This document shows, one piece after another, positions 3-20,899 of a stretch of DNA of 24,308 nt (position 1 is the first letter of the stretch; the number at the start of each line of letters is the position of its first letter). The notes beneath the pieces were generated by a model, which searched no databases, was not told the origin of the DNA, and was given only the letters and a program-made list of their open reading frames with translations. This DNA comes from a virus. The stretch spans positions 1 to 24,308 of IMG/VR virus record IMGVR_UViG_3300037231_000008. The stretch is one strand, 5' to 3'. The position numbers and the translations under genes are program-made.

Positions 3-473
3 TTAATAAATGGTAGATTTAAAAGTAAGATAGTCGGAGTTGGTGCTGGAAGAGTCGGCATGGCTCTTAAAGGATTTATTATGAGATTAGGGCATATGGG
101 GTATGACGCATGGTTTATAGGCGATACAACCGTACCATCTATTGGTAAAGAAGATATATTAATAGTAGCTTCTGGAAGTGGTTCTACAAAGACCATAGTT
201 GAACTCGTGCAAATTGCGTATAAGAATGAATGTATGATATTATGTGTTACTGGCAATCCAGATTCACCAATTGGTAAATTATCAGATTTTATCATTGAAA
301 TGAAAGCTCCTTCTGCAACTAAAGATGTGAATGGAACATTATCTATTCAGCCAATGACAACTTGTAATGAACAATCATTAGGAATCTTATTTGATGCAAT
401 AGTATTGGATCTTATGAAACTGTTGCAAGAAACACATGAAACAATGTGGAATAATCATTCAAATCTTGAATAA
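3..473 (+). CDS. 6-phospho-3-hexuloisomerase-like SIS-domain sugar isomerase (5' truncated by window)
   Basis: The reading frame is open from base 3, and the residues before the first ATG (position 60) already belong to the fold (GVGAGRVGMALKG), so the gene starts upstream of the window. The protein is a SIS-domain phosphosugar isomerase. The stretch MRLGHMGYDAWFIGDTTVP, then a serine-rich phosphate-binding loop (VASGSGST), TGNPDSPIGKLSD and a C-terminal LGILFDAIVLDLM helix follow the pattern of 6-phospho-3-hexuloisomerase (HxlB/PHI), which interconverts 3-hexulose-6-phosphate and fructose-6-phosphate. It is closer to PHI than to KdsD/GmhA arabinose- or heptose-phosphate isomerases. No hexulose-phosphate synthase gene lies beside it in the window; a ribulose-phosphate epimerase follows 51 nt later. 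The physiological substrate is therefore uncertain, and it may make a pentose or hexose phosphate for the nucleotide-sugar genes downstream. Confidence 0.85.
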   Translation, partial: LINGRFKSKIVGVGAGRVGMALKGFIMRLGHMGYDAWFIGDTTVPSIGKEDILIVASGSGSTKTIVELVQIAYKNECMILCVTGNPDSPIGKLSDFIIEMKAPSATKDVNGTLSIQPMTTCNEQSLGILFDAIVLDLMKLLQETHETMWNNHSNLE

Positions 474-477
474 TAAA

Positions 478-508
478 TTTGGACAGGAATCTCAAATTTC
501 GTATCTTC
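478..508 (+). promoter_or_regulatory. Bacteroidota-type promoter before the epimerase gene
   Basis: TTTG at 478-481 is followed after 20 nt by TATCTTC at 502-508. This matches the -33 TTTG / -7 TAnnTTTG pattern of Bacteroidota primary sigma promoters. The start codon at 525 lies 16 nt past the -7 box. Confidence 0.55.
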
Positions 509-524
509 GCTAAATAATTAAATT

Positions 525-1208
525 ATGAAATCTCCACTAATTGCTCCTTCTATAATTTGTATGGATCCCTTAGATATAAGGAAAGATCTGAAAGAACTTG
601 TTGATTCTAATGTAGATTTCCTTCATTTTGATGTAATGGATGGATTGTTTGTTCCAAGATATGGCTTATATCCAGAAATCTTAAAAGAAATAAAAACAGA
701 AGTTGCTCAAACTGGTAAGTACATTCCAGTAGATGCGCACATGATGGTTGCAAATCCTGAAGATTATATAGATACATTTGCAACAGCAGGAGCAGACTAT
801 TATAATGTACATTATGAAGCATGTCCAAACTTACACAGAACTATAAAGAAAATAAAAGATAGTGGAATGAAAGCAGGAGTTGCTTTAAACTATCACACTT
901 CTCCAGAAGTTCTCCATTATTTACTTCCTGATATTGATATGATTGTTCTAATGGCAATCAATCCAGGTATCGTTGGGCATAAAATCATTCCAGGAATATA
1001 TCAAAAGATTCTTGATACAAGGATAATGTTTAGAGATGCTGGATTCAAAGACATACTTATTCAGATAGATGGTGGCGTAACATTTGAGAGTGCTAATAAG
1101 ATGATGAATAATGGTGCAGATATTTTAGTATGCGGAACAGGAACTATCTTTCGTAAACATGAGGATACAATAACAAATCAAATTACAAAATTTAGAAAAC
1201 TATTTTAA
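525..1208 (+). CDS. rpe: Ribulose-phosphate 3-epimerase
   Basis: 227 aa, normal length for the family. It is a TIM-barrel epimerase that interconverts ribulose-5-phosphate and xylulose-5-phosphate in the cytoplasm. Family residues are in place: S9 (IAPSI), the metal/catalytic pair H34 and D36 in HFDVMDG, D70-H72 (DAHMM), HYEAC near residue 96, the AINPG loop near 144-148 and the second catalytic aspartate D182 in IQIDGG, followed by the phosphate-binding GTGTIF near the C-terminus. The stop overlaps the next start by one base (TAATG), implying co-translation with the nucleotidyltransferase-kinase. Together with the upstream PHI-like isomerase it probably redirects host pentose phosphates into an activated sugar. 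Epimerization of another ketose phosphate (as by allulose-6-phosphate epimerases) cannot be excluded from sequence alone. Confidence 0.9.
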   Translation: MKSPLIAPSIICMDPLDIRKDLKELVDSNVDFLHFDVMDGLFVPRYGLYPEILKEIKTEVAQTGKYIPVDAHMMVANPEDYIDTFATAGADYYNVHYEACPNLHRTIKKIKDSGMKAGVALNYHTSPEVLHYLLPDIDMIVLMAINPGIVGHKIIPGIYQKILDTRIMFRDAGFKDILIQIDGGVTFESANKMMNNGADILVCGTGTIFRKHEDTITNQITKFRKLF

Positions 1209-2806
1209 TGGCAACAGTACTTATAACAACATCAGGAATTGGTTCACGATTAGGAGATTTCACGAAACACACTAATAAAGCATTAGTAAGAGTTGGAGAC
1301 AAACCAGCCATATCTCATATTGTTGAGAGTTATTGTAAAGATACAGATTTTGTAATAACTCTTGGACACTTTGGTGCACATATAAAAGAGTTCTTGGAGA
1401 TAGCTTATCCGAATAGAAAGTTTGAATGGGTTTATGTGAATAAGTTTGAAGGAGAAGGAAGCAGTCTATTGTATAGTATGTTGCAAGCAGAAAGTCTTTT
1501 GCAGAAGCCATTTATATTTCATACTTCTGATACCATTGTTGAGAATGATTATTTTACTAGGCTGGAAGAGGGAAGTTTCAAGATAATGAATCATAATTTC
1601 ATACTTGGTGCAAAAACAAAAGACCATTCTCAGTATGCTTCCTTTGATGCATTTAATAATAATGTTATTAAAATGCATAAGAAAGGTGAATCCAATACAG
1701 ATTACACTCATATAGGTGTTGTTGGCATAAAAGATTATGAAATCTTTTGGAGAAATGCACAGAACACACATACATTAAACACTAAAAATACACAACTGTC
1801 TGATGTTGATGTTCTGACCAGAATGATTAATAATGGAGTTGTTTTCAAATCATTAGAAGCAACAGGATGGCATGATGTTGGAAATATAGATAAACTGAAT
1901 GAAACAAGAAAACATCTTTCCAGTTCCACAATGCATGTTCTTGATAAATTAGGTGAATCAATATTCAATGTTGAAGGTTATGTTGTTAAGTTTTTTGCGG
2001 ATCGTAATATTTGCAAGAATAGAGTAGAAAGAGTTAAATATTTGAATGGAACAGTTCCAGAGATAACAGCTTCTTCAACTTACTTTTATAAATATCCTTA
2101 TGTACAAGGAGAGTTGTTTGCAAATGTTGTTAATAGACAAGACTTTAAAGATTTCTTAAAGTTTGCTAAGTTCAATTTGTGGATTAATCCTGTTGATATG
2201 GATAGACACAAACAAGGAGAAATATTAAGAGAATTCTATTATGATAAGACGTTATCTCGCTTGAATGCGTTTCTCCTTAAAAGAAACATTAAGGATAAGG
2301 AAGAAATCATTAATGGTGAGAGAGTTCCTTCTGCAATAAATCTTATTGCAATGATAGATTTTAATATATTCAATGATTCTGATCTTACAAGCTTCCATGG
2401 TGATTTTATTTTGGATAATGTTATTAAAACACATGATGGATTTAAGTTGATTGACTGGCGCCAAGATTTTGCTGGATATATACAATTCGGTGATAAATAT
2501 TATGATCTTGCTAAACTCGCTCATAATCTTGTAGTTAATCATGGAATCATAGACAACAACAACTTCTCAGTATCAACTAAGAATGATGAGATATATCTCA
2601 ATATACACAGATTGCAAACCTTAGTAGAATGTGAAGAGATTCTATTCAACGTTTTTGATCCAAAAGAACAAAAGAAGATAAAGATATTAAGATCAATAAT
2701 ATGGTTGAATATGAGTGCTCTTCATCATCACCCTTTTGATTTGTTTCTTTATTATTTTGGTCGCTATACATTAAATCAAATATTACAAGATGGCGCAACA
2801 ATATAA
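1208..2806 (+). CDS. Two-domain sugar nucleotidyltransferase / choline-kinase-type kinase fusion
   Basis: 532 aa. The N-terminal domain (about 1-230) is a GT-A-like nucleotidyltransferase. It has the signature GIGSRLG at 10-16, then K24 and GDKP at 30-33, where most relatives have PK, and an HTSDT acidic site near 100. The C-terminal domain (about 250-532) is an aminoglycoside-phosphotransferase/choline-kinase fold: Brenner motif HGDFILDNV from H397 with D399 and N404, then IDWR with D416 as metal ligand. Such pairs phosphorylate a small alcohol or sugar and then attach CMP or UMP. Here both steps may be in one chain, giving an activated sugar from the sugar phosphates made by neighbours. The substrate is unknown. 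It overlaps the epimerase gene by 1 nt and the HAD gene by 17 nt, a strong operon signature. Confidence 0.8.
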   Translation: MATVLITTSGIGSRLGDFTKHTNKALVRVGDKPAISHIVESYCKDTDFVITLGHFGAHIKEFLEIAYPNRKFEWVYVNKFEGEGSSLLYSMLQAESLLQKPFIFHTSDTIVENDYFTRLEEGSFKIMNHNFILGAKTKDHSQYASFDAFNNNVIKMHKKGESNTDYTHIGVVGIKDYEIFWRNAQNTHTLNTKNTQLSDVDVLTRMINNGVVFKSLEATGWHDVGNIDKLNETRKHLSSSTMHVLDKLGESIFNVEGYVVKFFADRNICKNRVERVKYLNGTVPEITASSTYFYKYPYVQGELFANVVNRQDFKDFLKFAKFNLWINPVDMDRHKQGEILREFYYDKTLSRLNAFLLKRNIKDKEEIINGERVPSAINLIAMIDFNIFNDSDLTSFHGDFILDNVIKTHDGFKLIDWRQDFAGYIQFGDKYYDLAKLAHNLVVNHGIIDNNNFSVSTKNDEIYLNIHRLQTLVECEEILFNVFDPKEQKKIKILRSIIWLNMSALHHHPFDLFLYYFGRYTLNQILQDGATI

Positions 2807-3314
2807 GAATTTTATTTTTGATGTAGATGGTGTATTGACAGATGGTAAATTTCACTATTCAGTTGATGGCAAAGTGATGAAGGCATTTGGATCTGATGAT
2901 GCAGATGCTTTGCAATTAATAAAACATCGCATTAATATTGTGTTTGTTACTGGAGATTGGAGAGGATATGCTATAACATGCAAAAGAATGGAAGACATGG
3001 GATTTATAACCAACATTGTTAGTACTCACGAAAGATTAGCTTGGATTAAAGAAAGATACAATCCAGAAGAAACTATTTATGTTGGTGATGGTATATTTGA
3101 CTCTCTTGTTATGGAAGGAGTTGCAATTGGGATAGCTCCAGCAAATGCATTCCATTTAACAAAAAATGCTGCCAAAGTTAGATTAACTAATAAAGGTGGG
3201 GAAGGTGCTGTTGCGGAAGCAGTTTGTTGGTATGTAGAAAGCATACTTGGAATAGAATTTGATGTAGAACAACTTTTAAAAGATAAGAAAGATTATGAAG
3301 AAAACAATAAATGA
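2790..3314 (+). CDS. KdsC-like HAD-family sugar phosphatase
   Basis: 174 aa, cap-less HAD phosphatase of the KdsC / acylneuraminate-9-phosphatase group. Motif I is FDVDGVLTDG with nucleophile D11 and acid/base D13, motif II is T54 in FVTGD, and the late acidic motif is VGDGIFDS (D100, D104). GGEGAVAEAV near 137-146 corresponds to the GGxGAVRE tail of KdsC, though the usual Arg is an Ala. KdsC removes phosphate from 3-deoxy-octulosonate-8-phosphate. In this cluster it more likely trims a phosphate from the sugar being activated. The ATG at 2790 lies inside the end of the preceding gene and the next small gene starts 20 nt before this stop. Confidence 0.8.
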   Translation: MAQQYKNFIFDVDGVLTDGKFHYSVDGKVMKAFGSDDADALQLIKHRINIVFVTGDWRGYAITCKRMEDMGFITNIVSTHERLAWIKERYNPEETIYVGDGIFDSLVMEGVAIGIAPANAFHLTKNAAKVRLTNKGGEGAVAEAVCWYVESILGIEFDVEQLLKDKKDYEENNK

Positions 3315-14261: not shown

Positions 14262-14294
14262 TTTGTGGTTCCGAAAACAATTATTAGTTTTACG
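14262..14294 (+). promoter_or_regulatory. Promoter of tRNA operon A
   Basis: TTTG at 14262-14265, then 19 nt, then TAGTTTTACG at 14285-14294. The same extended elements (ATAAATTTTGT ... TARTTTTACG), with identical spacing, recur before operons B (17724) and C (19469). This class differs from the TATCTTG promoters that serve protein genes. Confidence 0.75.
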
Positions 14295-14349
14295 TCCTAA
14301 TAAAAAATAAACAAAGCAAGTGTTACAAATTATAAATATAGAGATAAAT

Positions 14350-14436
14350 ATGGCTGCGGGACGCAACATTGGCAGAAATGTCGATAAACGCACCGAGGGC
14401 AACTCTTTATATTATATTTGGGAAGAAAAAGAATAA
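14350..14436 (+). CDS. Leader peptide of tRNA operon A
   Basis: 28 codons plus stop. Residues 2-18 read AAGRNIGRNVDKRTEGN: apart from one Thr, every residue is an amino acid whose tRNA gene follows in operon A. All nine non-Met specificities of that operon (Ala, Gly, Arg, Asn, Ile, Val, Asp, Lys, Glu) are represented. The tail is SLYYIWEEKE. Codons such as GCG, GGC, CGC, GTC, ACC and GAG are unusually GC-rich for this AT-rich phage. Their choice may sharpen the response and is partly set by the base pairing described for the attenuator. The start is about 50 nt after the expected transcription start, with no Shine-Dalgarno sequence. It is probably a regulatory leader whose translation, not product, matters. 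Confidence 0.8.
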   Translation: MAAGRNIGRNVDKRTEGNSLYYIWEEKE

Positions 14437-14489
14437 CAGATATAAAATTAAAAATAAAGAACCCTCGGTGCTGAAAAGTTGCCGAGGGT
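14390..14489 (+). promoter_or_regulatory. Attenuator of tRNA operon A (alternative RNA pairings)
   Basis: GCACCGAGGG (14390-14399), inside leader codons 14-17, is complementary over 10 bp to CCCTCGGTGC (14462-14471), which contains the 5' arm of the intrinsic terminator. Pairing the two would prevent the terminator hairpin. The arrangement mirrors operons B and C. I did not find an equally clear arm that sequesters 14390-14403, so the switching details for this copy are less certain. Confidence 0.65.
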
Positions 14490-14500
14490 TTTTGTTTTAA
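14461..14500 (+). terminator. Intrinsic terminator of leader A
   Basis: ACCCTCGG (14461-14468) pairs with CCGAGGGT (14482-14489) across a 13-nt loop, followed by a T-rich run. It lies between the leader ORF and the first tRNA gene, so the tRNA genes should be transcribed only when it is bypassed. Confidence 0.85.
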
Positions 14501-14507
14501 TGCAAAT

Positions 14508-14583
14508 GCAATCGTAACTCAGTCTGGTCAGAGTGCTATACTTTTAATATAGAAGTCAGTGGGTTCAAATCCCCTCGGTTGCA
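14508..14583 (+). tRNA. tRNA-Lys(TTT)
   Basis: Acceptor GCAATCG/CGGTTGC, D stem ACTC/GAGT, anticodon stem CTATA/TATAG with loop CTTTTAA, anticodon TTT at 14543-14545, T arm GTGGGTTCAAATCCC. First gene after terminator A. CCA is not encoded. Confidence 0.93.
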
Positions 14584-14597
14584 CGAAAATAAAATAT

Positions 14598-14670
14598 AGA
14601 TCTTTAACTCAGTTGGAAGAGTGCCTATTTTACATGTAGGATGCCACAAGTTCGAATCTTGTAAGATCTA
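14598..14670 (+). tRNA. tRNA-Val(TAC)
   Basis: Acceptor AGATCTT/AAGATCT is perfect, D stem ACTC/GAGT, anticodon stem CCTAT/GTAGG, loop TTTACAT, anticodon TAC at 14631-14633, T arm CAAGTTCGAATCTTG. No encoded CCA. Confidence 0.93.
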
Positions 14671-14690
14671 CTGAATAGAAAAAAAAATAA

Positions 14691-14765
14691 GTAGGATTAG
14701 CATAATTGGAAGTGCTTTAGAATACGAATCTAAGTTGTGTGAAAGTTCGAGTCTTTCATCCTACT
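14691..14765 (+). tRNA. tRNA-Arg(ACG)
   Basis: Acceptor GTAGGAT/ATCCTAC, D stem GCAT/GTGC, anticodon stem TTAGA/TCTAA, loop ATACGAA, anticodon ACG at 14724-14726. If deaminated to ICG it reads CGC, a codon used twice in leader A. Confidence 0.92.
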
Positions 14766-14770
14766 CATAA

Positions 14771-14841
14771 GCAGATATAGCACAATGGAAGTGCAGGGGA
14801 CTTCTAATCCTCGTATAATGGTTCGACCCCATTTATCTGTT
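14771..14841 (+). tRNA. tRNA-Arg(TCT)
   Basis: Acceptor GCAGATA/TATCTGT (one G-U), D stem GCAC/GTGC, anticodon stem GGGGA/TCCTC, loop CTTCTAA, anticodon TCT at 14803-14805, reading AGA (present in leader A). Confidence 0.88.
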
Positions 14842-14864
14842 CAAAATTAGTTCTTTTATATAAT

Positions 14865-14895
14865 GGCAAAGTAGCTCCAATGTAGAGCGGAAAAT
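14865..14895 (+). pseudogene. 5' half of a disrupted tRNA gene
   Basis: GGCAAAG, TA, then D arm GCTC-loop-GAGC and GGAAAA look like positions 1-31 of a tRNA, but no anticodon loop with T33, T arm or 3' acceptor follows. Similarity ends at CAGTTAT (14896), just before the homing-endonuclease-like gene at 14912. Its specificity cannot be read. It is probably a remnant of the nuclease gene's insertion. Confidence 0.6.
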
Positions 14896-14911
14896 CAGTT
14901 ATGATATTTAT

Positions 14912-15769
14912 ATGATTACATATAGGGATTTAACAAATGAACAAATAGAATTAATAATTGCATTAAGTAATGAGCAGAAATTAAAGAAAAAAGTTATTAG
15001 TTTGCAATTAAATGTGTCATACAGTGCAATTAAACATGTTCTTAGTGGAAATGTCTTTGTTAAGAAAGAAACAAAGACATATGTGTGCAACAAATGCAAC
15101 AAAGAATTTGATAATCCACATAAATTTAGAGGACATTGTAGTTTTCATCTAAGAGAAAATAGAACAAATAAAAAGGTTTTAAAAAAAGAAAAGCAAAAAT
15201 TAGAAGGAGGATATAGATGTAGATTTTGTAATTTGTTATATAAGAATCCATTTTCTTTGGGATCGCATGTTCCTCATTGTGTTAAAAATCCAAATTGTGA
15301 AATCAACAAGGAAATATTTAAGAAAAGTAGTTTGAAATCACAATTAACATTAAAGAACAAAAGTTATGAAGATAAGATTAAATCTAGTGATAAGTTATCA
15401 AACACTATAAGAAATAAAGTTTTAGAAGGGACTTGGCACACCAGCCTAAAGAAAACAAAAATATATGAATATAACGGAATAAAATTCCATGGAACATGGG
15501 AATTAAAATATGCAAAATGGTTAGATGAAAATAATATAAAATGGAGGAGACCAATAGAAAATTTTCCATATCCTTGGAAAAATAAAACAAATCGGTACAC
15601 TCCAGATTTTTATCTTATAAAAGAAAAATGTTACATTGAAATAAAAGGATATGAAACAGATAAAGATCTAATGAAACAAAGACATTTTCCAAAGAATTTA
15701 GTTTTAAAAGTTTTAAAAGGAAAGGATCTTATTGAAATAGGAATTGAATTGCATAAAAAATTCACGTAG
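14912..15769 (+). CDS. Homing-endonuclease-like protein in tRNA operon A (HTH, zinc fingers, PD-(D/E)XK)
   Basis: 285 aa. Residues 5-45 form a likely HTH. Two zinc fingers follow (C59, C62, H75, H79 and C103, C106, H119, C123), then a basic linker. The C-terminal nuclease has E197 (GTWELKYAKWLDENN), YTPDFYLI (P231, D232) and YIEIKG (E243, K245), a PD-(D/E)XK core. It resembles the protein at 11010 in plan. Upstream is a tRNA 5' half; downstream its last codons and TAG stop (15767-15769) lie inside the acceptor stem of tRNA-Asn. CAGTTAT at 14896 may be its promoter element. It is inferred to be a selfish mobile gene that targets the tRNA region. Confidence 0.8.
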   Translation: MITYRDLTNEQIELIIALSNEQKLKKKVISLQLNVSYSAIKHVLSGNVFVKKETKTYVCNKCNKEFDNPHKFRGHCSFHLRENRTNKKVLKKEKQKLEGGYRCRFCNLLYKNPFSLGSHVPHCVKNPNCEINKEIFKKSSLKSQLTLKNKSYEDKIKSSDKLSNTIRNKVLEGTWHTSLKKTKIYEYNGIKFHGTWELKYAKWLDENNIKWRRPIENFPYPWKNKTNRYTPDFYLIKEKCYIEIKGYETDKDLMKQRHFPKNLVLKVLKGKDLIEIGIELHKKFT

Positions 15770-15836
15770 AGATGGGTTGGCTTCATCACCTGACTGTTAA
15801 TCAGCGAGTTCCTTGGTTCGAATCCAAGTGCGTGAG
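15762..15836 (+). tRNA. tRNA-Asn(GTT)
   Basis: Acceptor TCACGTA/TGCGTGA, D stem GATG/CATC, anticodon arm with loop CTGTTAA, anticodon GTT at 15796-15798 (outermost stem pair C-C mismatched), T arm TTGGTTCGAATCCAA. The first 8 nt overlap the end of the nuclease gene. Confidence 0.9.
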
Positions 15837-15852
15837 CAAAATAAATAAAAAT

Positions 15853-15925
15853 TGCGGGCGGGAGGTAAGGTATCTCTCTAGTCTCATAAGCTAGTCCAAT
15901 CCAGTTCGATTCTGGAGCGTCGCAA
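15853..15925 (+). tRNA. tRNA-Met(CAT), irregular acceptor stem
   Basis: Anticodon stem CTAGT/GCTAG, loop CTCATAA, anticodon CAT at 15885-15887, T arm TCCAGTTCGATTCTGGA are clear. The acceptor pairs well only in its outer half (TGCG/CGCA) and the D stem is 3 bp (GAG/CTC). Ends are approximate. It could be initiator or elongator Met. Confidence 0.75.
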
Positions 15926-15935
15926 CTTGTATAAT

Positions 15936-16012
15936 GTAGCATAGGTGTAAATGGTTGCATGTCAGTCTTCCAAACTGAAGGAATATAGTGAGTTCGATCC
16001 TCACATGCTACA
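15936..16012 (+). tRNA. tRNA-Gly(TCC)
   Basis: Acceptor GTAGCAT/ATGCTAC, anticodon stem TCAGT/ACTGA, loop CTTCCAA, anticodon TCC at 15969-15971, T arm GTGAGTTCGATCCTCAC. Reads GGA (and GGN by wobble). Confidence 0.92.
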
Positions 16013-16024
16013 CAGGTCAGTTAA

Positions 16025-16051
16025 CAAGTTCTGCGTGGAGTTAAAAACTTG
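16025..16051 (+). other. Short hairpin between tRNA-Gly and tRNA-Glu
   Basis: CAAGTT (16025-16030) pairs with AACTTG (16046-16051) around a 15-nt loop. No T tract follows, so it is not a typical terminator; possibly a processing or spacer structure. Confidence 0.35.
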
Positions 16052-16055
16052 AAAT

Positions 16056-16130
16056 GCCCATGTCGTCTAATGATTAGGACGGCTCACTTTCCATGAGCAA
16101 ATTTCGGTTTGAATCCGTGCTTGGGTACCA
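16056..16130 (+). tRNA. tRNA-Glu(TTC) with encoded CCA
   Basis: Acceptor GCCCATG/CTTGGGT (one U-U mismatch), D stem GTCT/GGAC, anticodon stem GCTCA/TGAGC, loop CTTTCCA, anticodon TTC at 16089-16091. The only tRNA here followed directly by a genomic ACCA end. Confidence 0.85.
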
Positions 16131-16183
16131 AAGTAAAGTTGTTATTTGCATATAGCAAGAAAAGCAATAACATGTCTTTACTT
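16131..16183 (+). repeat. Imperfect inverted repeat (long hairpin)
   Basis: AAGTAAAG (16131-16138) pairs with CTTTACTT (16176-16183), and GTTATTTGC (16141-16149) pairs with GCAATAAC (16164-16171) with one bulge, giving about 16 bp around a 14-nt loop. It fills the gap between tRNA-Glu and tRNA-Asp. No T tract follows. Confidence 0.6.
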
Positions 16184-16187
16184 AAAT

Positions 16188-16262
16188 GGCTCGTTGGTCC
16201 AGTCAGCAGTGGACGTTCCCTTGTCACGGGAAAGATCGCAAGTTGAAATCTTGTACGAGCCG
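16188..16262 (+). tRNA. tRNA-Asp(GTC)
   Basis: Acceptor GGCTCGT/ACGAGCC, D stem GTCC/GGAC, anticodon stem TTCCC/GGGAA, loop TTGTCAC, anticodon GTC at 16223-16225. The T loop is TTGAAAT. Confidence 0.93.
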
Positions 16263-16272
16263 CAGATTAAAA

Positions 16273-16347
16273 TGACACTTAGCTCATTATTGGAAGAGCA
16301 GCAAACTCATAATTTGAAGGTGATGGGATCATAGCCCGTAGTGTCAA
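16273..16347 (+). tRNA. tRNA with CAT anticodon (Met or lysidine-type Ile)
   Basis: Acceptor TGACACT/AGTGTCA is perfect, D stem GCTC/GAGC, anticodon loop CTCATAA with CAT at 16308-16310, stem 4 bp plus a G-A mismatch. The T stem ATGGG/CCCGT encloses an atypical loop ATCATAG. As a second CAT gene it may be tRNA-Ile2, read after lysidine modification. Confidence 0.78.
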
Positions 16348-16352
16348 CATAT

Positions 16353-16424
16353 AGGAAGTTAGTAGAAAGGTAAGCACGCTGCACTGATACTGCAGAAATA
16401 GGATCTCGGAATTCCTACTTCCTA
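16353..16424 (+). tRNA. tRNA-Ile(GAT)
   Basis: Acceptor AGGAAGT/ACTTCCT, anticodon stem CTGCA/TGCAG, loop CTGATAC, anticodon GAT at 16386-16388. The D stem is poor and the T arm irregular (AGGA/TCCT with an enlarged loop). Confidence 0.82.
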
Positions 16425-16434
16425 CAAAATAAAT

Positions 16435-16508
16435 GGGCTGTCATGTTCCAAGGCTGGCGAAGGATCCTTGCAAGATCTTTGTGAAAGGTTCGTTTCCTTT
16501 ACGGTCCA
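16435..16508 (+). tRNA. tRNA-Ala(TGC)
   Basis: Acceptor GGGCTGT/ACGGTCC, anticodon stem GGATC/GATCT, loop CTTGCAA, anticodon TGC at 16469-16471, T arm AAAGGTTCGTTTCCTTT. Last gene of operon A. Confidence 0.88.
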
Positions 16509-16529
16509 CATATAAATTAAAAACATAAT

Positions 16530-16727
16530 ATGATATTACAATTGAAAAATGAACTTGATGAGATTTGTAATGATCTTGGATTGCAAGACATCCACTTTAC
16601 AGTCTCTCCAAAAGCAAAGAATGCAAGTATTATTGATTTAACGAAACATGCAATTTGTATGTTGAAGATTTACAAAAGACATTTAGAAGGTGATAAAACT
16701 GCACCTATCAGAGAGATCTTTATATAA
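16530..16727 (+). CDS. Hypothetical protein
   Basis: 65 aa. Starts 21 nt after tRNA-Ala and may be co-transcribed with operon A. Mostly helical (MILQLKNELDEICNDLG; then TKHAICMLKIYKRHLEG). No recognised motif. The following RNase H-like gene starts 10 nt after its stop, which supports it being translated. Function unknown. Confidence 0.55.
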   Translation: MILQLKNELDEICNDLGLQDIHFTVSPKAKNASIIDLTKHAICMLKIYKRHLEGDKTAPIREIFI

Positions 16728-16737
16728 AACACTTATT

Positions 16738-17199
16738 ATGGAAAGGAACACTTTCAAAACATTAAGCAATCATAAAACAATCAACCTAATTGATTACATT
16801 GCAAACTATGTCATAGATTATCCAGAAACTGAAATCTTAATTGGTTGTGATTCTCAAAATCATAAAAGAAATACTTTATTTGCAATTGTAATTGGTTTAT
16901 ACAGACCAGGAAAAGGAGCGCATGTATTGTATTCAAGATTCGAACAAAAGCGTGAGAAAGATAGCGTAACTCGTTTATTAAATGAAGTATGGTTCTCTGT
17001 TGAAGTTGCTGAGAAGATATTAAATGAACTTGGAATAAGAGCATCTAATATTGACATTGATATTAATCCAGATCCAAAATATAAATCAAATGTGGCTTTA
17101 AGCTCTGCTGTTGGGATAGTACAGGGGCTTGGCTATACCTGCCGTCATAAAGGTAATTATCCAACCATGACGTATTGCGCAGACAGTTTAGTAAAATAA
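16738..17199 (+). CDS. RNase H-like nuclease-fold protein, YkuK/DUF458 family
   Basis: 153 aa from the ATG at 16738. An earlier in-frame ATG at 16690 overlaps the preceding gene and is not preferred. Features: first strand ILIGCDSQNHKRNTLFAIVI with D38, a downstream E83 in RLLNEVW, the IDIDINPDPKYKSN segment (D106, D108, N110, D112) and a terminal CADS aspartate near 149. This matches the ribonuclease-H-like DUF458 (YkuK) fold with its acidic metal site. The substrate of the family is not established. It sits just downstream of a tRNA operon, where an RNA-processing role would make sense, but that is inference. Confidence 0.72.
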   Translation: MERNTFKTLSNHKTINLIDYIANYVIDYPETEILIGCDSQNHKRNTLFAIVIGLYRPGKGAHVLYSRFEQKREKDSVTRLLNEVWFSVEVAEKILNELGIRASNIDIDINPDPKYKSNVALSSAVGIVQGLGYTCRHKGNYPTMTYCADSLVK

Positions 17200-17201
17200 A
17201 T

Positions 17202-17231
17202 TTTGCAAGACGTTTTTTCTTTATTATCTTG
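17202..17231 (+). promoter_or_regulatory. Bacteroidota-type promoter before 17266 gene
   Basis: TTTG at 17202-17205, 19 nt, TATCTTG at 17225-17231, upstream of the ATG at 17266. The two boxes overlap an inverted repeat GCAAGA ... TCTTGC, which could affect its use. Confidence 0.6.
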
Positions 17232-17265
17232 CTTTTCCTTATTAATAATTTAAAATGAAAAACAA

Positions 17266-17721
17266 ATGGAAAACGCGCAATTTACTGAATTGAGATTAAA
17301 CAAGACTCAAGAGGAAAAATTAACTGAATTGACAATAAAATTCTTTAGAAGAAAGAAACGAAAGAATGATGATTACATCTATATCAAAGAAGTTCCCTAT
17401 TCAGAAGATGTTGAATTAAAAGTTGTTAATTATGATGATGTAATTAAAAGAGAAAGAGGAACAGGAGACATAATTAAAATGGATTCTATTCTTGATATGC
17501 CTTGGTATGAATTCTGCATGACAATTCTTCCAATAGCAATTTTTTCCAAAATCAATCCTAAAAAATATGATGAGATCGATAGCACATTCTTTTACGATTA
17601 CAAACCAGATTATCGCAGCATCATTCTTGATAAATTAATAAATCATGAAGAAGAACACATTGTTGATTATCTTTATGATTTTGTTGTGGATCTTACATCA
17701 AGAAAATTATTTGTAAAATAA
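17266..17721 (+). CDS. Hypothetical acidic protein
   Basis: 151 aa, soluble. It has a basic patch early (FFRRKKRKNDD, residues 27-37) and an acidic C-terminal half rich in Asp, Tyr and Glu (HEEEHIVDYLYDFVVDL). No recognised family. It is a single-gene unit with its own promoter at 17202 and ends directly at the promoter of tRNA operon B, whose TTTG box lies 2 nt after the stop codon. Confidence 0.6.
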   Translation: MENAQFTELRLNKTQEEKLTELTIKFFRRKKRKNDDYIYIKEVPYSEDVELKVVNYDDVIKRERGTGDIIKMDSILDMPWYEFCMTILPIAIFSKINPKKYDEIDSTFFYDYKPDYRSIILDKLINHEEEHIVDYLYDFVVDLTSRKLFVK

Positions 17722-17723
17722 AT

Positions 17724-17756
17724 TTTGTCATCTAAATAAATAGTCATAGTTTTACG
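17724..17756 (+). promoter_or_regulatory. Promoter of tRNA operon B
   Basis: TTTG 17724-17727, 19 nt, TAGTTTTACG 17747-17756. Same extended boxes and spacing as at 14262 and 19469. The leader ATG lies only 2 nt after the -7 element, so the leader mRNA may be leaderless. Confidence 0.75.
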
Positions 17757-17758
17757 TC

Positions 17759-17827
17759 ATGAAAAATTTACAACATACACAACATTGGTTTACGCCGTTT
17801 ATAGGTGTAACGAGGTTGTGTAGTTAA
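17759..17827 (+). CDS. Leader peptide of tRNA operon B
   Basis: 22 codons plus stop. Residues 5-14 read QHTQHWFTPF: ten consecutive residues drawn only from Gln, His, Thr, Trp, Phe and Pro. These are exactly the six tRNAs encoded after the terminator. Codons CAA, CAT, ACA, TGG and TTT match the tRNA anticodons TTG, GTG, TGT, CCA and GAA; CCG needs wobble by the Pro TGG tRNA. The remaining residues are MKNL at the start and IGVTRLCS at the end, whose codons carry the antiterminator arm. The peptide itself probably has no function beyond being translated. Confidence 0.85.
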   Translation: MKNLQHTQHWFTPFIGVTRLCS

Positions 17828-17874
17828 TTGTCTTAACATATTAATAACATTTGAACCTCGTTTTTAACGAGGTT
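17777..17874 (+). promoter_or_regulatory. Four-arm attenuator of tRNA operon B
   Basis: Arm 1 ACACAAC (17777-17783, within the His-Thr-Gln-His codons) is complementary to GTTGTGT (17815-17821). Arm 2 AACGAGGTT (17809-17817) is complementary to arm 3 AACCTCGTT (17854-17862). Arm 3 also pairs with arm 4 AACGAGGTT (17866-17874), and arms 2 and 4 are identical. A ribosome stalled on the core codons would block 1:2, allow 2:3 and prevent the terminator. A ribosome reaching the stop (17825) would cover arm 2 and allow 3:4. This is the classic trp/his attenuator logic. Confidence 0.82.
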
Positions 17875-17879
17875 TTTTG
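17854..17879 (+). terminator. Intrinsic terminator of leader B
   Basis: Nine-base-pair stem AACCTCGTT/AACGAGGTT with a 3-nt T loop, followed by TTTTG. Located between the leader ORF and tRNA-Pro. Confidence 0.9.
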
Positions 17880-17904
17880 TTTGTATAGATCTTTGAATAA
17901 ATAT

Positions 17905-17994
17905 CGGGGCGTGTAGGTAACCAGGAAGCCGACTCATTTTGGAAATGAGAATGGACATAAAAGTCTTATGCAAGTTCAAATCTTGTCGTCCCGA
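17905..17994 (+). tRNA. tRNA-Pro(TGG) with a long variable arm
   Basis: Acceptor CGGGGCG/CGTCCCG is perfect, anticodon stem CTCAT/ATGAG, loop TTTGGAA, anticodon TGG at 17940-17942, T arm GCAAGTTCAAATCTTGT. The variable region is about 20 nt with GGAC/GTCT able to pair, unusual for a Pro tRNA. The D arm is irregular. Confidence 0.85.
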
Positions 17995-17999
17995 CACAT

Positions 18000-18072
18000 G
18001 CGTCGATAGTGTAACAGCGTAGCACAGAAGCTTCCAAACCTTTTAGTTCGGGTTCAAATCCTGATCGACGTG
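18000..18072 (+). tRNA. tRNA-Trp(CCA)
   Basis: Acceptor GCGTCGA/TCGACGT, D stem GTGT/GCAC, T arm TCGGGTTCAAATCCTGA. Standard spacing puts the anticodon loop at TTCCAAA with CCA at 18034-18036 (innermost stem pair C-C). Shifting by two would give Gly TCC but destroys the stem. Leader B contains Trp and its core contains no Gly, which agrees. Confidence 0.8.
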
Positions 18073-18085
18073 CATAATAAAATAT

Positions 18086-18157
18086 GGTGCAATAGCTGAG
18101 ATAGATTAGCGCAAGTCTGAAAAACTTGAGAGAAAAGAGCATTACTTTTTTGTACCG
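18086..18157 (+). tRNA. tRNA-Phe(GAA) with atypical T loop
   Basis: Acceptor GGTGCAA/TTGTACC, D stem GCT/AGC, anticodon stem CAAGT/ACTTG, loop CTGAAAA, anticodon GAA at 18119-18121. T stem AAAAG/CTTTT encloses AGCATTA, lacking the TTC signature. Confidence 0.85.
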
Positions 18158-18166
18158 CTTTGAAAT

Positions 18167-18240
18167 GTTGGATATGCTGATATGGTGCAGCACTGGATTT
18201 GTATCCCAGAACAGACAGGCTTCGAGTTCCTGATCCAACT
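18167..18240 (+). tRNA. tRNA-Thr(TGT)
   Basis: Acceptor GTTGGAT/ATCCAAC, D stem GCTG/CAGC, anticodon arm CTGGA/CCCAG (inner A-C), loop TTTGTAT, anticodon TGT at 18200-18202, T loop TTCGAGT. Confidence 0.9.
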
Positions 18241-18250
18241 CAGTTTATAT

Positions 18251-18323
18251 TGCGCTTTGGTATAACGGCTTATTACGGAGAGTTTTGATCTCTCAAATCA
18301 CTGTTCAACTCAGTGAAGCGCAT
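18251..18323 (+). tRNA. tRNA-Gln(TTG)
   Basis: Acceptor TGCGCTT/AAGCGCA, D stem GTA/TAC, perfect anticodon stem GAGAG/CTCTC with loop TTTTGAT, anticodon TTG at 18285-18287, T arm CACTGTTCAACTCAGTG. A one-base shift would read Lys TTT but with a weaker stem. Confidence 0.88.
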
Positions 18324-18331
18324 CAAACATG

Positions 18332-18401
18332 GTGACTGTAGTGTAATGGTAGCACGAAAAATTGTGGATTTTTTAGATAAGGTTCGAATCCTGCTGTCAC
18401 A
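18332..18401 (+). tRNA. tRNA-His(GTG)
   Basis: Acceptor GTGACTG/CTGTCAC (one U-U mismatch), preceded by G at 18331 as the expected G-1. D stem GTGT/GCAC, anticodon stem AAAAA/TTTTT, loop TTGTGGA, anticodon GTG at 18364-18366. The T stem is weak. Last gene of operon B. Confidence 0.87.
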
Positions 18402-18436
18402 CCTTTCAGCCAATTTTAAAATATTTCTCTAAATAT

Positions 18437-18466
18437 TTTGCAGTTTGCAAATAAAGGATTATCTTG
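18437..18466 (+). promoter_or_regulatory. Bacteroidota-type promoter before 18534 gene
   Basis: TTTG 18437-18440, 19 nt, TATCTTG 18460-18466, about 67 nt before the ATG at 18534. Confidence 0.65.
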
Positions 18467-18533
18467 TCTTCGAATTACTCTTATTAATAAACAAAACCCA
18501 CAGCCGCAGTGGTTATAAAAAGACGGAAACAAA

Positions 18534-19061
18534 ATGAAAACAATCAGAACAAAGGTTTACGAATTCAACGAATTAAGTGAATCTGCAAAACAAAAAGCTA
18601 TTGAACAATATTATGAAATTAATGTTCAAGATGATTGGTGGCAAAGTACTTATGAAGATGCTGAAAACATCGGATTAAAAATAACGGAATTTGAGATTGA
18701 TAGAATATCCTATTGCAACGGTGAGCTTATATCCAGCGCTAAAGAAATGGCTGATAAGATTAAAGAAGAACACGGCGAAATCTGCGAGACTTACAAATCA
18801 GCAGTTAATTACCTAAAAGAAAGAGAAGAATTGTTGCATAACAGTCCAAAGGATCCAGATGGTGACTATTATGCTGATGAGAATAAAGTTGATTCTGATT
18901 TGGAAGAATTAGATGCCAATTTCTTAGAATCTATTTGTGAAGATTATAGGATTATATTGAAAAAAGAATTTGAATATCTTACCAGCAAAGAAGCTATCAT
19001 TGAAACTATTTGTAATAATGAATTTTATTTCACAATAGAAGGTAAAAGATTTAATCAATAA
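18534..19061 (+). CDS. Conserved phage/bacterial hypothetical protein (VYEFNELSExAK family)
   Basis: 175 aa. It opens with KVYEFNELSESAKQKAIEQYYE and continues DDWWQSTYEDAENIGLKI. This N-terminal phrase (xYxFxELSExAKxKA, then WW..YEDA) is shared by a widespread group of phage and mobile-element proteins of unknown function. The rest is acidic and helical with coiled-coil character (about 65-125), and the C-terminus has FEYLTSKEAIIETI and a short strand. Own promoter at 18437. First of three short genes between operons B and C. Confidence 0.68.
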   Translation: MKTIRTKVYEFNELSESAKQKAIEQYYEINVQDDWWQSTYEDAENIGLKITEFEIDRISYCNGELISSAKEMADKIKEEHGEICETYKSAVNYLKEREELLHNSPKDPDGDYYADENKVDSDLEELDANFLESICEDYRIILKKEFEYLTSKEAIIETICNNEFYFTIEGKRFNQ

Positions 19062-19093
19062 TACTTATTAACAAAAATAAAACGAAAAGCAAA

Positions 19094-19252
19094 ATGACAT
19101 CTTCTAAAACAAACAAAGAGATACTTTCTATTATAGAAAAACATCTCACTAAAGAAAAAGCAATCAACCTATTTACAGAACTTTCAACTGTAGATGGTAA
19201 TAAATCTTTCAAGGATTCTATAAAGAATCTATTAAAACTTCTAAAAAGTTAA
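19094..19252 (+). CDS. Small hypothetical protein
   Basis: 52 aa, MTSSKTNKEILSIIEKHL and onward, helical and Lys-rich, ending NLLKLLKS. Starts 32 nt after the preceding stop and ends 2 nt before the next ATG. No family recognised; kept because of the spacing and codon use. Confidence 0.5.
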   Translation: MTSSKTNKEILSIIEKHLTKEKAINLFTELSTVDGNKSFKDSIKNLLKLLKS

Positions 19253-19254
19253 TC

Positions 19255-19461
19255 ATGAAAAAACTAAATAGATGGTTACGATACATAGTTTATCGTAGAG
19301 CATATTTTGATGCTGTCTTGATGTATGGATTAGATTCTAAAACAGCAAGATTCTTCAGAAGAATAACTTACAGATACGCAACGAAAGAACAATATGAGAC
19401 CGCTCTATCTTATGGAAGATATCTTTCTAAGAATGGTGGAAAAGTTTTAAGCTACGTTTAA
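19255..19461 (+). CDS. Small basic protein
   Basis: 68 aa, rich in Arg, Lys and Tyr (MKKLNRWLRYIVYRRAYFD; FFRRITYRYATKEQYE). Probably a compact helical nucleic-acid- or protein-binding polypeptide. It ends directly at the promoter of tRNA operon C: the TTTG box follows 7 nt after its stop. No family recognised. Confidence 0.55.
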   Translation: MKKLNRWLRYIVYRRAYFDAVLMYGLDSKTARFFRRITYRYATKEQYETALSYGRYLSKNGGKVLSYV

Positions 19462-19468
19462 AATAAAT

Positions 19469-19501
19469 TTTGTCAATAAATAATAAAGCATTAATTTTAC
19501 G
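19469..19501 (+). promoter_or_regulatory. Promoter of tRNA operon C
   Basis: TTTG 19469-19472, 19 nt, TAATTTTACG 19492-19501. Third copy of the tRNA-operon promoter class. The leader ATG is 6 nt past the -7 element. Confidence 0.75.
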
Positions 19502-19507
19502 CCATAA

Positions 19508-19594
19508 ATGAAAAAACAAAATCTATATTGTCTCTCTTTGTCGTTATTAAGTAGTTATCTATTTGATAAGGGAAGAGACACTGATTTGGGATAG
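19508..19594 (+). CDS. Leader peptide of tRNA operon C
   Basis: 28 codons plus stop. Residues 6-18 read LYCLSLSLLSSYL: thirteen consecutive residues using only Leu, Tyr, Cys and Ser, the only four amino acids served by the tRNA genes downstream (Leu TAG, Leu TAA, Ser GCT, Cys GCA, Tyr GTA, Ser TGA). Codon choice covers each isoacceptor: CTA and TTA/TTG for the two Leu tRNAs, AGT and TCT/TCG for the two Ser tRNAs, TGT for Cys and TAT for Tyr. The ends (MKKQN and FDKGRDTDLG) are outside the pattern. Near-leaderless start, no Shine-Dalgarno sequence. Confidence 0.88.
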   Translation: MKKQNLYCLSLSLLSSYLFDKGRDTDLG

Positions 19595-19644
19595 ATTTAA
19601 ATCATAACAAATTATTAAAGCCTCTTCAGTAATGTTGAGGCTTT
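19529..19644 (+). promoter_or_regulatory. Four-arm attenuator of tRNA operon C
   Basis: Arm 1 TGTCTCT (19529-19535, in the Tyr-Cys-Leu-Ser codons) is complementary to AGAGACA (19574-19580). GAAGAG (19572-19577) overlaps that arm and is complementary to CTCTTC (19622-19627), which overlaps the terminator 5' arm AAAGCCTC (19617-19624). Thus 1:2, 2:3 and 3:4 pairings are mutually exclusive in the same order as in operon B. The 2:3 pairing is short (6 bp), so this copy is somewhat weaker on paper. Confidence 0.72.
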
Positions 19645-19651
19645 CTTGTTT
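19617..19651 (+). terminator. Intrinsic terminator of leader C
   Basis: AAAGCCTC (19617-19624) pairs with GAGGCTTT (19637-19644) across a 12-nt loop, followed by CTTGTTTT. It stands between the leader ORF and tRNA-Leu(TAG). Confidence 0.85.
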
Positions 19652-19656
19652 TATAT

Positions 19657-19730
19657 GTCACATTAGCCCAATTGGAAGAGGCAATAGTTTTAGAAACTAT
19701 CAAGTATCAGTTCGAATCTGATATGTGATA
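19657..19730 (+). tRNA. tRNA-Leu(TAG) with short variable loop
   Basis: Acceptor GTCACAT/ATGTGAT (G-U at the end), anticodon stem ATAGT/ACTAT, loop TTTAGAA, anticodon TAG at 19691-19693 (reads CUA), T arm ATCAGTTCGAATCTGAT. The variable loop is only 5 nt, whereas bacterial Leu tRNAs normally have a long arm. Confidence 0.87.
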
Positions 19731-19746
19731 CAAAGTTATTATTAAT

Positions 19747-20460
19747 ATGGATTTTATTTGTAGATTTTGCAATGAAAATATTACTGTTGTTAAATGGCAA
19801 CAAAAAGGAGCACATCTTTCAAATTGTAAATTAAACCCAAATAAAATAAATAAAAGTTTATTGTGCAGTGAAAAAAGCCAAGCATATTGTGATAAAAAAT
19901 ATTCACAATTAAAAGATAAATATCATAAAAATCCTAAAAGATGTAAATTTTGTAAAAAAGAAATACATTTTATAAACAGACAAAAGAATTTTTGCAATCA
20001 TTCATGTTCTGCAAAACTCAATAATACATTAAAAGTTAGGAAAAATAATAGAGAATATCCATATTATTCTGAAAGATGTAAATTCAAATTTTCAATAGAA
20101 AAATTTAATTTCTTATTTTCAGATCAAGAATTAAAATTATTAGAATACAAAATATATTCTCCTAAGAATAATAAAAATGGATTTAGTAAAGATCATATGC
20201 TATCTGTGAATTATGGTTTTAATAACAACATTCCAGAATATGTATTAAGTCATGTTGCAAATTGTTCTTTAATTTTACAAACACAAAATAGAATAAAAAA
20301 TGCAAATATTATTTTAACTCTTGATGAATTAATAGAAAGAATTTTATTGTTTGAATGCAAAATAAAAATTAGATATCCAGAATTAGATAGAACTGAAATT
20401 ATTAGAAAAATATTATCTATTTGCTCTCATGGTGGAAATGGCGATACACGTAGAACTTAA
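19747..20460 (+). CDS. HNH homing-endonuclease-like protein ending inside tRNA-Leu
   Basis: 237 aa. Two zinc-binding clusters come first: C5, C8 with a later H23/C27, and C66, C69, C83, C87. The C-terminal half has an HNH-type core: KDH (D149, H150), SHVANC (H169, N172) and QNRIKNAN (N181, K184), then LTLDELIERIL. The last 38 nt of the gene lie in tRNA-Leu(TAA), and the TAA stop (20458-20460) is exactly the tRNA anticodon. It sits between two Leu tRNA genes of operon C. Likely a free-standing homing endonuclease adapted to a conserved tRNA target. Confidence 0.8.
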   Translation: MDFICRFCNENITVVKWQQKGAHLSNCKLNPNKINKSLLCSEKSQAYCDKKYSQLKDKYHKNPKRCKFCKKEIHFINRQKNFCNHSCSAKLNNTLKVRKNNREYPYYSERCKFKFSIEKFNFLFSDQELKLLEYKIYSPKNNKNGFSKDHMLSVNYGFNNNIPEYVLSHVANCSLILQTQNRIKNANIILTLDELIERILLFECKIKIRYPELDRTEIIRKILSICSHGGNGDTRRT

Positions 20461-20506
20461 AATTCTATGCCTTTATGGATTGTGAGTTCGAATCTCACTG
20501 GGAGTA
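20423..20506 (+). tRNA. tRNA-Leu(TAA)
   Basis: Acceptor GCTCTCA/TGGGAGT, anticodon stem TAGAA/TTCTA, loop CTTAAAA, anticodon TAA at 20458-20460, a long variable arm, and T arm GTGAGTTCGAATCTCAC. The 5' 38 nt are also the 3' end of the HNH gene. Confidence 0.9.
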
Positions 20507-20512
20507 CAAAAC

Positions 20513-20599
20513 AGTAGGTATCTGATTGTTGGTTTATCAGAGCAATTTGCTAAATTGCCCCGTGTAAAAGCGGCAAGAGTTCAATTCTCTTACCTACTG
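20513..20599 (+). tRNA. tRNA-Ser(GCT)
   Basis: Acceptor AGTAGGT/ACCTACT, D stem CTGA/TCAG, anticodon stem GCAAT/ATTGC, loop TTGCTAA, anticodon GCT at 20549-20551, long variable arm, T arm AAGAGTTCAATTCTCTT. Confidence 0.93.
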
Positions 20600-20606
20600 C
20601 CAAAAT

Positions 20607-20695
20607 AGCAAGTTGGTTCGAGTGGTCGAAGACTACACTCTGCAAAAGTGTATGGAAGAAATTCCTCATCATCAGTTCAAATCTGATACTTGCTT
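20607..20695 (+). tRNA. tRNA-Cys(GCA) with class II (Ser-like) body
   Basis: Acceptor AGCAAGT/ACTTGCT, anticodon stem ACACT/AGTGT, loop CTGCAAA, anticodon GCA at 20642-20644, T arm ATCAGTTCAAATCTGAT. The variable region is about 19 nt with a GGAA/TTCC hairpin, and the D arm (CGAGTGGTCGAAG) is like that of Ser tRNAs. Normal Cys tRNAs have a short variable loop. Confidence 0.85.
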
Positions 20696-20705
20696 CAAAA
20701 TATAT

Positions 20706-20791
20706 GGATAAGCGGCAACGATGGTGGAGTTGCAACAGACTGTAAATCTGTCACATTAGAAACTCAGTGGATTCGAATTCCACCTTATCCT
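20706..20791 (+). tRNA. tRNA-Tyr(GTA)
   Basis: Acceptor GGATAAG/CTTATCC, D stem GCAA/TTGC, anticodon stem ACAGA/TCTGT, loop CTGTAAA, anticodon GTA at 20742-20744, long variable arm as normal for bacterial Tyr, T arm GTGGATTCGAATTCCAC. Confidence 0.94.
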
Positions 20792-20802
20792 CAAATAACA
20801 AT

Positions 20803-20887
20803 GGAAGAGTGCTCGAGAGCCTTAAGAGGATAGTCTTGAAAACTATTGGATGTCAAAGTTCCGTGGGTTGGAATCCCACCTCTTCCT
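20803..20887 (+). tRNA. tRNA-Ser(TGA)
   Basis: Acceptor GGAAGAG/CTCTTCC, anticodon stem ATAGT/ACTAT, loop CTTGAAA, anticodon TGA at 20837-20839, long variable arm, T arm GTGGGTTGGAATCCCAC. Last tRNA of operon C. Confidence 0.93.
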
Positions 20888-20899
20888 CAACTTATATTG

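Follow-up and report, generated by a model that had tools for sequence, protein, structure and literature searches.

The reason for which phages carry transfer RNA (tRNA) genes, and the means by which they control them, have long been an open question. The IMG/VR virus record IMGVR_UViG_3300037231_000008 was analyzed over its entire 24,308 bases (the window); it encodes a phage portal protein and an array of tRNA genes. The window contains three tRNA operons (A, B and C), each with the order Bacteroidota-type promoter, open reading frame (ORF) of 22 to 28 codons, intrinsic terminator and tRNA genes. The original prediction, made from these letters alone, had proposed that each ORF is a leader peptide written in the amino acids of its own operon's tRNAs. 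Scans for ORFs, terminators and tRNAs located all of these features where it had placed them, confirming the three-operon observation. Comparison with related sequences makes it very probable that each operon is under a ribosome-mediated transcription attenuator, in which the leader peptide would sample the codons of the tRNAs encoded downstream.

All features of the operons are on the plus strand. Leader ORF A (28 amino acids, 14350-14436, MAAGRNIGRNVDKRTEGNSLYYIWEEKE) has core codons for A, G, R, N, I, V, D, K and E; it is followed by a terminator at 14457-14495 (-22.2 kcal/mol) and by tRNA-Lys(ttt), Val(tac), Arg(acg) and Arg(tct) at 14508-14842 (ARAGORN) and tRNA-Asn, Gly, Glu, Asp, Met(cat), Ile(gat) and Ala(tgc) at 15762-16509 (ARAGORN and cmscan). 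Leader ORF B (22 amino acids, 17759-17827, MKNLQHTQHWFTPFIGVTRLCS), with core codons for Q, H, T, W, F and P, precedes tRNA-Pro, Trp, Phe, Thr, Gln and His at 17905-18403, and leader ORF C (28 amino acids, 19508-19594, MKKQNLYCLSLSLLSSYLFDKGRDTDLG), with core codons for L, Y, C and S, precedes tRNA-Leu(tag), Leu(taa), Ser(gct), Cys, Tyr and Ser(tga) at 19657-20888, where an ORF separates the two tRNA-Leu genes. Terminator analysis found terminators B and C at 17853-17880 and 19617-19650. The tRNAs of operons B and C were called by ARAGORN at default and lowered thresholds. Over the window, the default setting gave 18 tRNAs, the lowered threshold added Ala (16435-16509), Thr, Tyr and Phe, and cmscan added tRNA-Ile (16353-16424), whose GAT anticodon loop was read by eye. 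A CAT-anticodon tRNA candidate at approximately 15855-15930 was seen by eye only and was called neither by cmscan nor by ARAGORN at a very low threshold.

Jointly, the three operons encode tRNAs for all 20 amino acids, each amino acid being confined to one operon, and each leader contains every amino acid of its own operon, Met aside, which was counted only as the start. Leader C holds both Leu codon classes (CTN and TTR) and both Ser classes (TCN and AGY). The core matches claimed originally (16/17 in A, 10/10 in B and 13/13 in C) were correct on recounting. The claim that such matches are improbable by chance also stood, although figures for the full ORF, scoring coverage of all operon amino acids together with the observed purity, are less extreme than the core-only estimates: approximately 0.01 for A, 3e-4 to 6e-4 for B and 1e-4 to 6e-4 for C, with a joint probability of approximately 1e-9.

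Related loci (approximately 100 from IMG/VR) were fetched via an RNase H-like gene situated among the tRNAs, and the same leader-terminator-tRNA layout was found in approximately 50 leaders, which group into families. In these, a short same-strand ORF lies directly upstream of the tRNA genes, with an intrinsic terminator between the ORF and the first tRNA gene. Of 53 visible array starts, 40 had a strong terminator with a preceding short ORF upstream of the first tRNA; inspection revealed a terminator between ORF and tRNA in at least six of the other 13. Where a phage has two or three operons, the leaders divide the amino acid alphabet as the operons divide the tRNAs; where it has a single large array, the leader holds all 20 amino acids, within 39 to 53 residues, in 15 of 17 leaders tested. 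Leader length increases with the number of amino acids covered (Spearman 0.79).

Co-variation of leader and tRNA content was tested with 15 leaders from six multi-operon phages. These represent five lineages, namely those of the window, of Leptolyngbya phage Lbo-JY46, of Cellulophaga phage phi17:2 (which also includes phi4:1), of L147 and L138 (a clade that also includes L133, L134 and L139) and of the phage of locus L044. None of the 15 leaders lacks an amino acid of its own operon, the control codons thus being cognate to the tRNA product, and the true leader-operon pairing scores best in all six phages. When leaders were permuted across operons in 200,000 trials, the maximum score was 8.98, versus 11.52 observed (p <= 5e-6). 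The check proposed with the original prediction, that leader cores of relatives should follow tRNA content, came out in its favor in all five lineages, among which are two phage groups unrelated to each other. In phi17:2, leader 1 (MKIQRLHLQELEQPIISGGTGV) precedes tRNA-Pro, Glu, Gln, His, Leu, Leu and Arg(acg), leader 2 (MQLTKTGITVIDKTKGARAYLGDTVIG, with a GTG start) precedes Ala, Lys, Ile, Gly, Met, Asp, Thr, Val, Arg(tct) and Met, and leader 3 (MKTNYCTYNNSNWSFSYDTGSVCTLGSDGLIG) precedes tRNA-Tyr, Ser, Ser, Asn, Trp, Phe and Cys, this tRNA-Cys being a pseudo-tRNA in the record with a GCA anticodon read by eye. The terminators of the three phi17:2 operons lie near 87638, 88614 and 90184 of NC_021798, and the Arg codon is CGT in leader 1 and AGA in leader 2. 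Leader 2 was sought once the pattern was evident in leaders 1 and 3, with a start picked by hand; it is annotated, with a longer TTG start, as hypothetical protein gp077 (L163:3943-4062; NC_021798.1 88442-88561).

The match also follows tRNA genes that change operon. In L133, L134 and L147, operon 1 carries tRNA-Thr and tRNA-Val and operon 2 carries tRNA-Gln; leader 1 has the sequence ..FTHTMSFTIC..AEVAD.. or one near it, and leader 2 contains QQP, a single Val near the start and no Thr. The L138 phage has the reverse arrangement, with tRNA-Gln in operon 1 and the Thr and Val tRNAs in operon 2; leader 1 (L149, MKQFKHIQSFIMCSKWADERD..) has two Gln and no Thr, and leader 2 (MNTVINISLSLNPLYNGNRRGVLPTGT..) has Thr and Val but no Gln. 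As judged from these sequences, most of the matching leader codons moved along with the Thr, Val and Gln tRNAs, with one exception (L139).

Leader codons for Arg, Ile and Ser also tend, in the sequences compared, to match the encoded isoacceptor. Leaders of the same phage have CGN before tRNA-Arg(acg) and AGR before tRNA-Arg(tct) in Lbo-JY46, phi17:2, L138, L147 and the L044 phage, and leader A of the window has both Arg codon classes before both tRNAs; L134a and L139a have an AGA codon in addition to CGC. In operons with a single isoacceptor class, core codons match the class in 12/14 cases for Arg, 15/19 for Ser and 12/16 for Ile, tallies that include related leaders and are thus not independent events. 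This depth of matching bears on the possibility that the leader senses amino acid starvation or a general slowdown of translation, tRNA output being a by-product. Any loss of charged tRNA, amino acid shortage included, would stall the ribosome, and full-array leaders with all 20 amino acids could be general speed sensors. However, a match that extends from the own operon to the isoacceptor class fits a response to tRNA identity, and amino acid sensing gives no need to split CGN from AGR, or ATY from ATA, between the leaders of one phage. A starvation sensor is consequently considered unlikely, although not negligible.

The original prediction had included an upstream arm competing for the terminator. 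Among 46 leaders, most carry near the ORF end a segment that copies the terminator 3' arm and is complementary to the 5' arm. This arm copy is usually centered 4 to 24 nucleotides before the stop codon, and it beats shuffled sequences at p <= 0.05 in 23 of the 46. Restricting the arm copy to the ORF end gave a Fisher combined p of 4e-16 over 20 partly non-independent leaders. Within the window, the arm copy, the putative antiterminator strand, is strong in leader A (14389-14410, -25.0 kcal/mol, p ~0.002-0.007) and leader B (17808-17818, -13.0 kcal/mol, p = 0.007), whereas in leader C there is only a weak possible copy (19571-19578, -8.7 kcal/mol, p ~0.35-0.41, not significant). The distance from stop codon to terminator is near-constant, mostly 17 to 33 nucleotides. 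Folding of full-length transcripts to minimum energy with masked ribosome footprints was rejected as an assay, as the terminator wins almost everywhere and the switch is invisible; it was replaced by folding transcripts cut before the 3' arm. In these, the antiterminator can form in 47 of 51 leaders when the ribosome is stalled in the core, and in none of the 51 when it sits at the stop codon, because the arm copy is then masked. Antiterminator and terminator are mutually exclusive in such folds, weakly so in operon C.

The attenuator interpretation is supported by co-variation in relatives, largely to the depth of isoacceptors, together with the arm copy in the ORF end and the near-constant spacing. 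From the layout, co-variation, isoacceptor bias, arm copies, spacing and codon-level constraint that can be read in the sequences, we infer translation of the leaders, stall-dependent read-through and the sign, trigger and benefit of the response. With charged tRNAs plentiful, the ribosome would reach the stop codon and cover the arm copy, the terminator hairpin would form and the tRNA genes would be off. Shortage of any sampled tRNA would stall the ribosome upstream and expose the arm copy, which would pair with the emerging 5' arm of the terminator, allowing the polymerase to read through and all tRNAs of the operon to be made. The leader would thus act as an OR-gate over the tRNAs encoded downstream, with feedback on tRNA supply, and the benefit during infection may be replacement of tRNAs lost to host decay or to anti-phage tRNA nucleases. 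The trigger may be anticodon nucleases, loss of host tRNAs or a plain matching of supply to demand.

Several results weigh against this interpretation. The arm copy is not significant in leader C of the window, in L038, L053 and L127 or in some full-array leaders. Equilibrium folding favors the terminator in nearly all leaders, so that the switch must be kinetic and decided during transcription. Leader A has its Glu codon and some of its Lys and Asp codons at or inside the arm copy, where they may go unsensed. Leader 1 of L139 retains three Thr codons though tRNA-Thr sits in operon 2, an exception that is partial, core Val having been lost and Thr kept. Finally, naked RNA forms the antiterminator in 40 of 51 leaders; a trp-type protector (1:2) hairpin was accordingly not found, and read-through is expected when the leader is not translated, in contrast to trp. 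This departure from the trp scheme, with a sign that is itself deduced, leaves some room for the opposite response, in which leader translation promotes tRNA expression, e.g., by a ribosome occluding the terminator, and tRNAs are made when translation runs well. That is improbable, as the terminator lies 17 to 33 nucleotides past the stop codon, mostly out of reach of a ribosome positioned there, whose footprint includes the arm copy.

The reading frames of the leaders are constrained, with a ratio of nonsynonymous to synonymous polymorphism (pN/pS) of 0.46 to 0.68 and frame-preserving gaps within leader families, which is consistent with selection on codons but falls short of proving translation. 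Such constraint would also be expected if the ORFs encoded small functional peptides acting in trans, with an indirect match of composition, but leader sequences are unrelated across lineages and yet their amino acid set tracks the operon, and alignments within families show residues shifting position while the set stays; trans-acting peptides are thus very improbable. A chance or compositional artifact of AT-rich phage DNA, for which it can be said that a leader taken singly, as with A, is no more than mildly improbable over the full ORF (~0.01), is refuted for the whole set by the joint probabilities, the permutation test and the relocation of codons with tRNA genes and merits practically no credence.

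The three promoters of the window point to the host. Promoter A (14262-14292) consists of TTTG (14262-14265), 19 nucleotides and TAGTTTTA (14285-14292), promoter B (17724-17754) of TTTG, 19 nucleotides and TAGTTTTA, and promoter C (19469-19499) of TTTG, 19 nucleotides and TAATTTTA, all on the plus strand. They fit TTTG-N19-TAnnTTTR, which corresponds to the Bacteroidota -33/-7 type with the consensus TTTG/TANNTTTG (PMC6847099). The motif AAATAAATTTTG-N22-TTTTACG occurs three times in the window with none expected, bearing out the common promoter class that had been proposed. A scan for sigma-70 promoters gave nothing above chance. The ATG of leader B begins 4 nucleotides past promoter B, so that its mRNA would start at or beside the AUG and be nearly leaderless. 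Within the phage collection, the portal protein is best matched by a Chryseobacterium phage, all four genome contigs bearing related genes are labeled as Bacteroidota metagenome-assembled genomes (MAGs), and one of the contigs with related genes, from a Flavobacterium MAG, has a full-array leader. Promoter type, portal match and MAG contigs together suggest a Bacteroidota host for the window. Phage Lbo-JY46 (L086, PP438436.1) has a cyanobacterium as its recorded host; its terminase groups with those of crAss-like, Cellulophaga and Flavobacterium phages and its leader promoters fit TTTG-N20-TAnnTTTG, and on these sequences its true host may be one of the Bacteroidota present in the culture.

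The system is not universal, as some tRNA-rich phages lack such leaders: the same scan found none in the tRNA-rich KVP40, DSS3_MAL1, phiKT1024, Astolliot, crAss001 and DAC15, which include several Proteobacteria phages. A tblastn search of a leader against the phage collection gave no match, similarity of the region's DNA to phage records was limited to tRNAs and one endonuclease-like stretch, portal relatives (L003-L027) have few or no tRNAs near the portal gene, and the RNase H-like protein of Lbo-JY46 had no relatives in IMG/VR. Short leaders of large arrays in L053 (443-511), L127 (8594-8668) and L038 (1734-1772) have a partial amino acid set and weak arm copies and are possibly decaying attenuators.

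Other genes accompany the arrays. The RNase H-like gene (PF04308; 16738-17199 in the window) sits inside or next to the tRNA array in most array-bearing loci, and Vibrio, Pseudomonas and Ruegeria phages have it close to tRNA arrays too; a role in tRNA metabolism is a guess. Window ORFs 14912-15769 and 19747-20460 sit among tRNAs like homing endonucleases, with no Pfam match, and approximately 215 bases within the former have 70% identity to huge phages LR756500 and LR756508. Directly before this ORF, a tRNA-like 5' half (14870-14910) may be a disrupted tRNA. At 60-3314, an ORF cluster resembling, by eye only, sugar isomerase, epimerase, nucleotidyltransferase and phosphatase genes perhaps serves surface sugars.

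Ribosome-mediated attenuation of biosynthesis operons is textbook knowledge, and pheST is a synthetase operon under leader-peptide attenuation. The phage leaders share with the trp, his, leu, thr, ilv and pheST attenuators a short control-codon ORF, an intrinsic terminator, an alternative antiterminator and, as predicted here, read-through on stalling. Unlike those of biosynthesis and synthetase operons, they control tRNA genes and sample many amino acids, often all 20, with codons that are largely isoacceptor matched; they also lack the protector hairpin of trp-type attenuators and are carried by Bacteroidota phages. The mechanism, control-codon sensing and isoacceptor effects are treated in PMC1183508. 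A 2010 survey of premature terminators, before which leader-peptide systems were known only in Proteobacteria and Actinobacteria, added Firmicutes and makes no mention of tRNA genes or phages (PMC2965389). T-box riboswitches likewise couple the supply of charged tRNA to transcription termination, but the T-box RNA binds uncharged tRNA directly, without translation; in the sequences scanned by covariance model, T-box and other Rfam leader families gave sub-threshold matches only. Phage tRNA arrays directed against depletion (by anticodon nucleases, retrons and PARIS) are similar in that viral tRNAs may replace lost host tRNAs, and expression here differs in appearing conditional on tRNA shortage. 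Neither attenuation nor leader peptides come up in papers on phage tRNAs that counter host tRNA loss (PMC10264068 and PMC11555353) or in an extensive survey of tRNA genes in phages (PMC13015707). No earlier description of tRNA operon attenuators that spell their own tRNAs was found in the literature searched, outside which lay most subscription journals and bioRxiv at large. The class of mechanism is known, and its application to tRNA operons is likely new.

Taken more broadly, these operons are probably self-monitoring units of viral tRNA supply, in which a leader would count its own tRNAs codon by codon and restock them on demand, a logic that persisted or arose repeatedly in unrelated Bacteroidota phages and follows moving tRNA genes. 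The system can be tested in cultured phages, since phi17:2 and phi4:1 grow on Cellulophaga baltica, and the leaders would be a reporter-ready assay for tRNA depletion. If the interpretation is true, the leaders spell out which tRNAs a phage monitors, tRNA supply would be under feedback management during infection, and leader-peptide attenuation would extend to Bacteroidota phages and to tRNA genes as its output.

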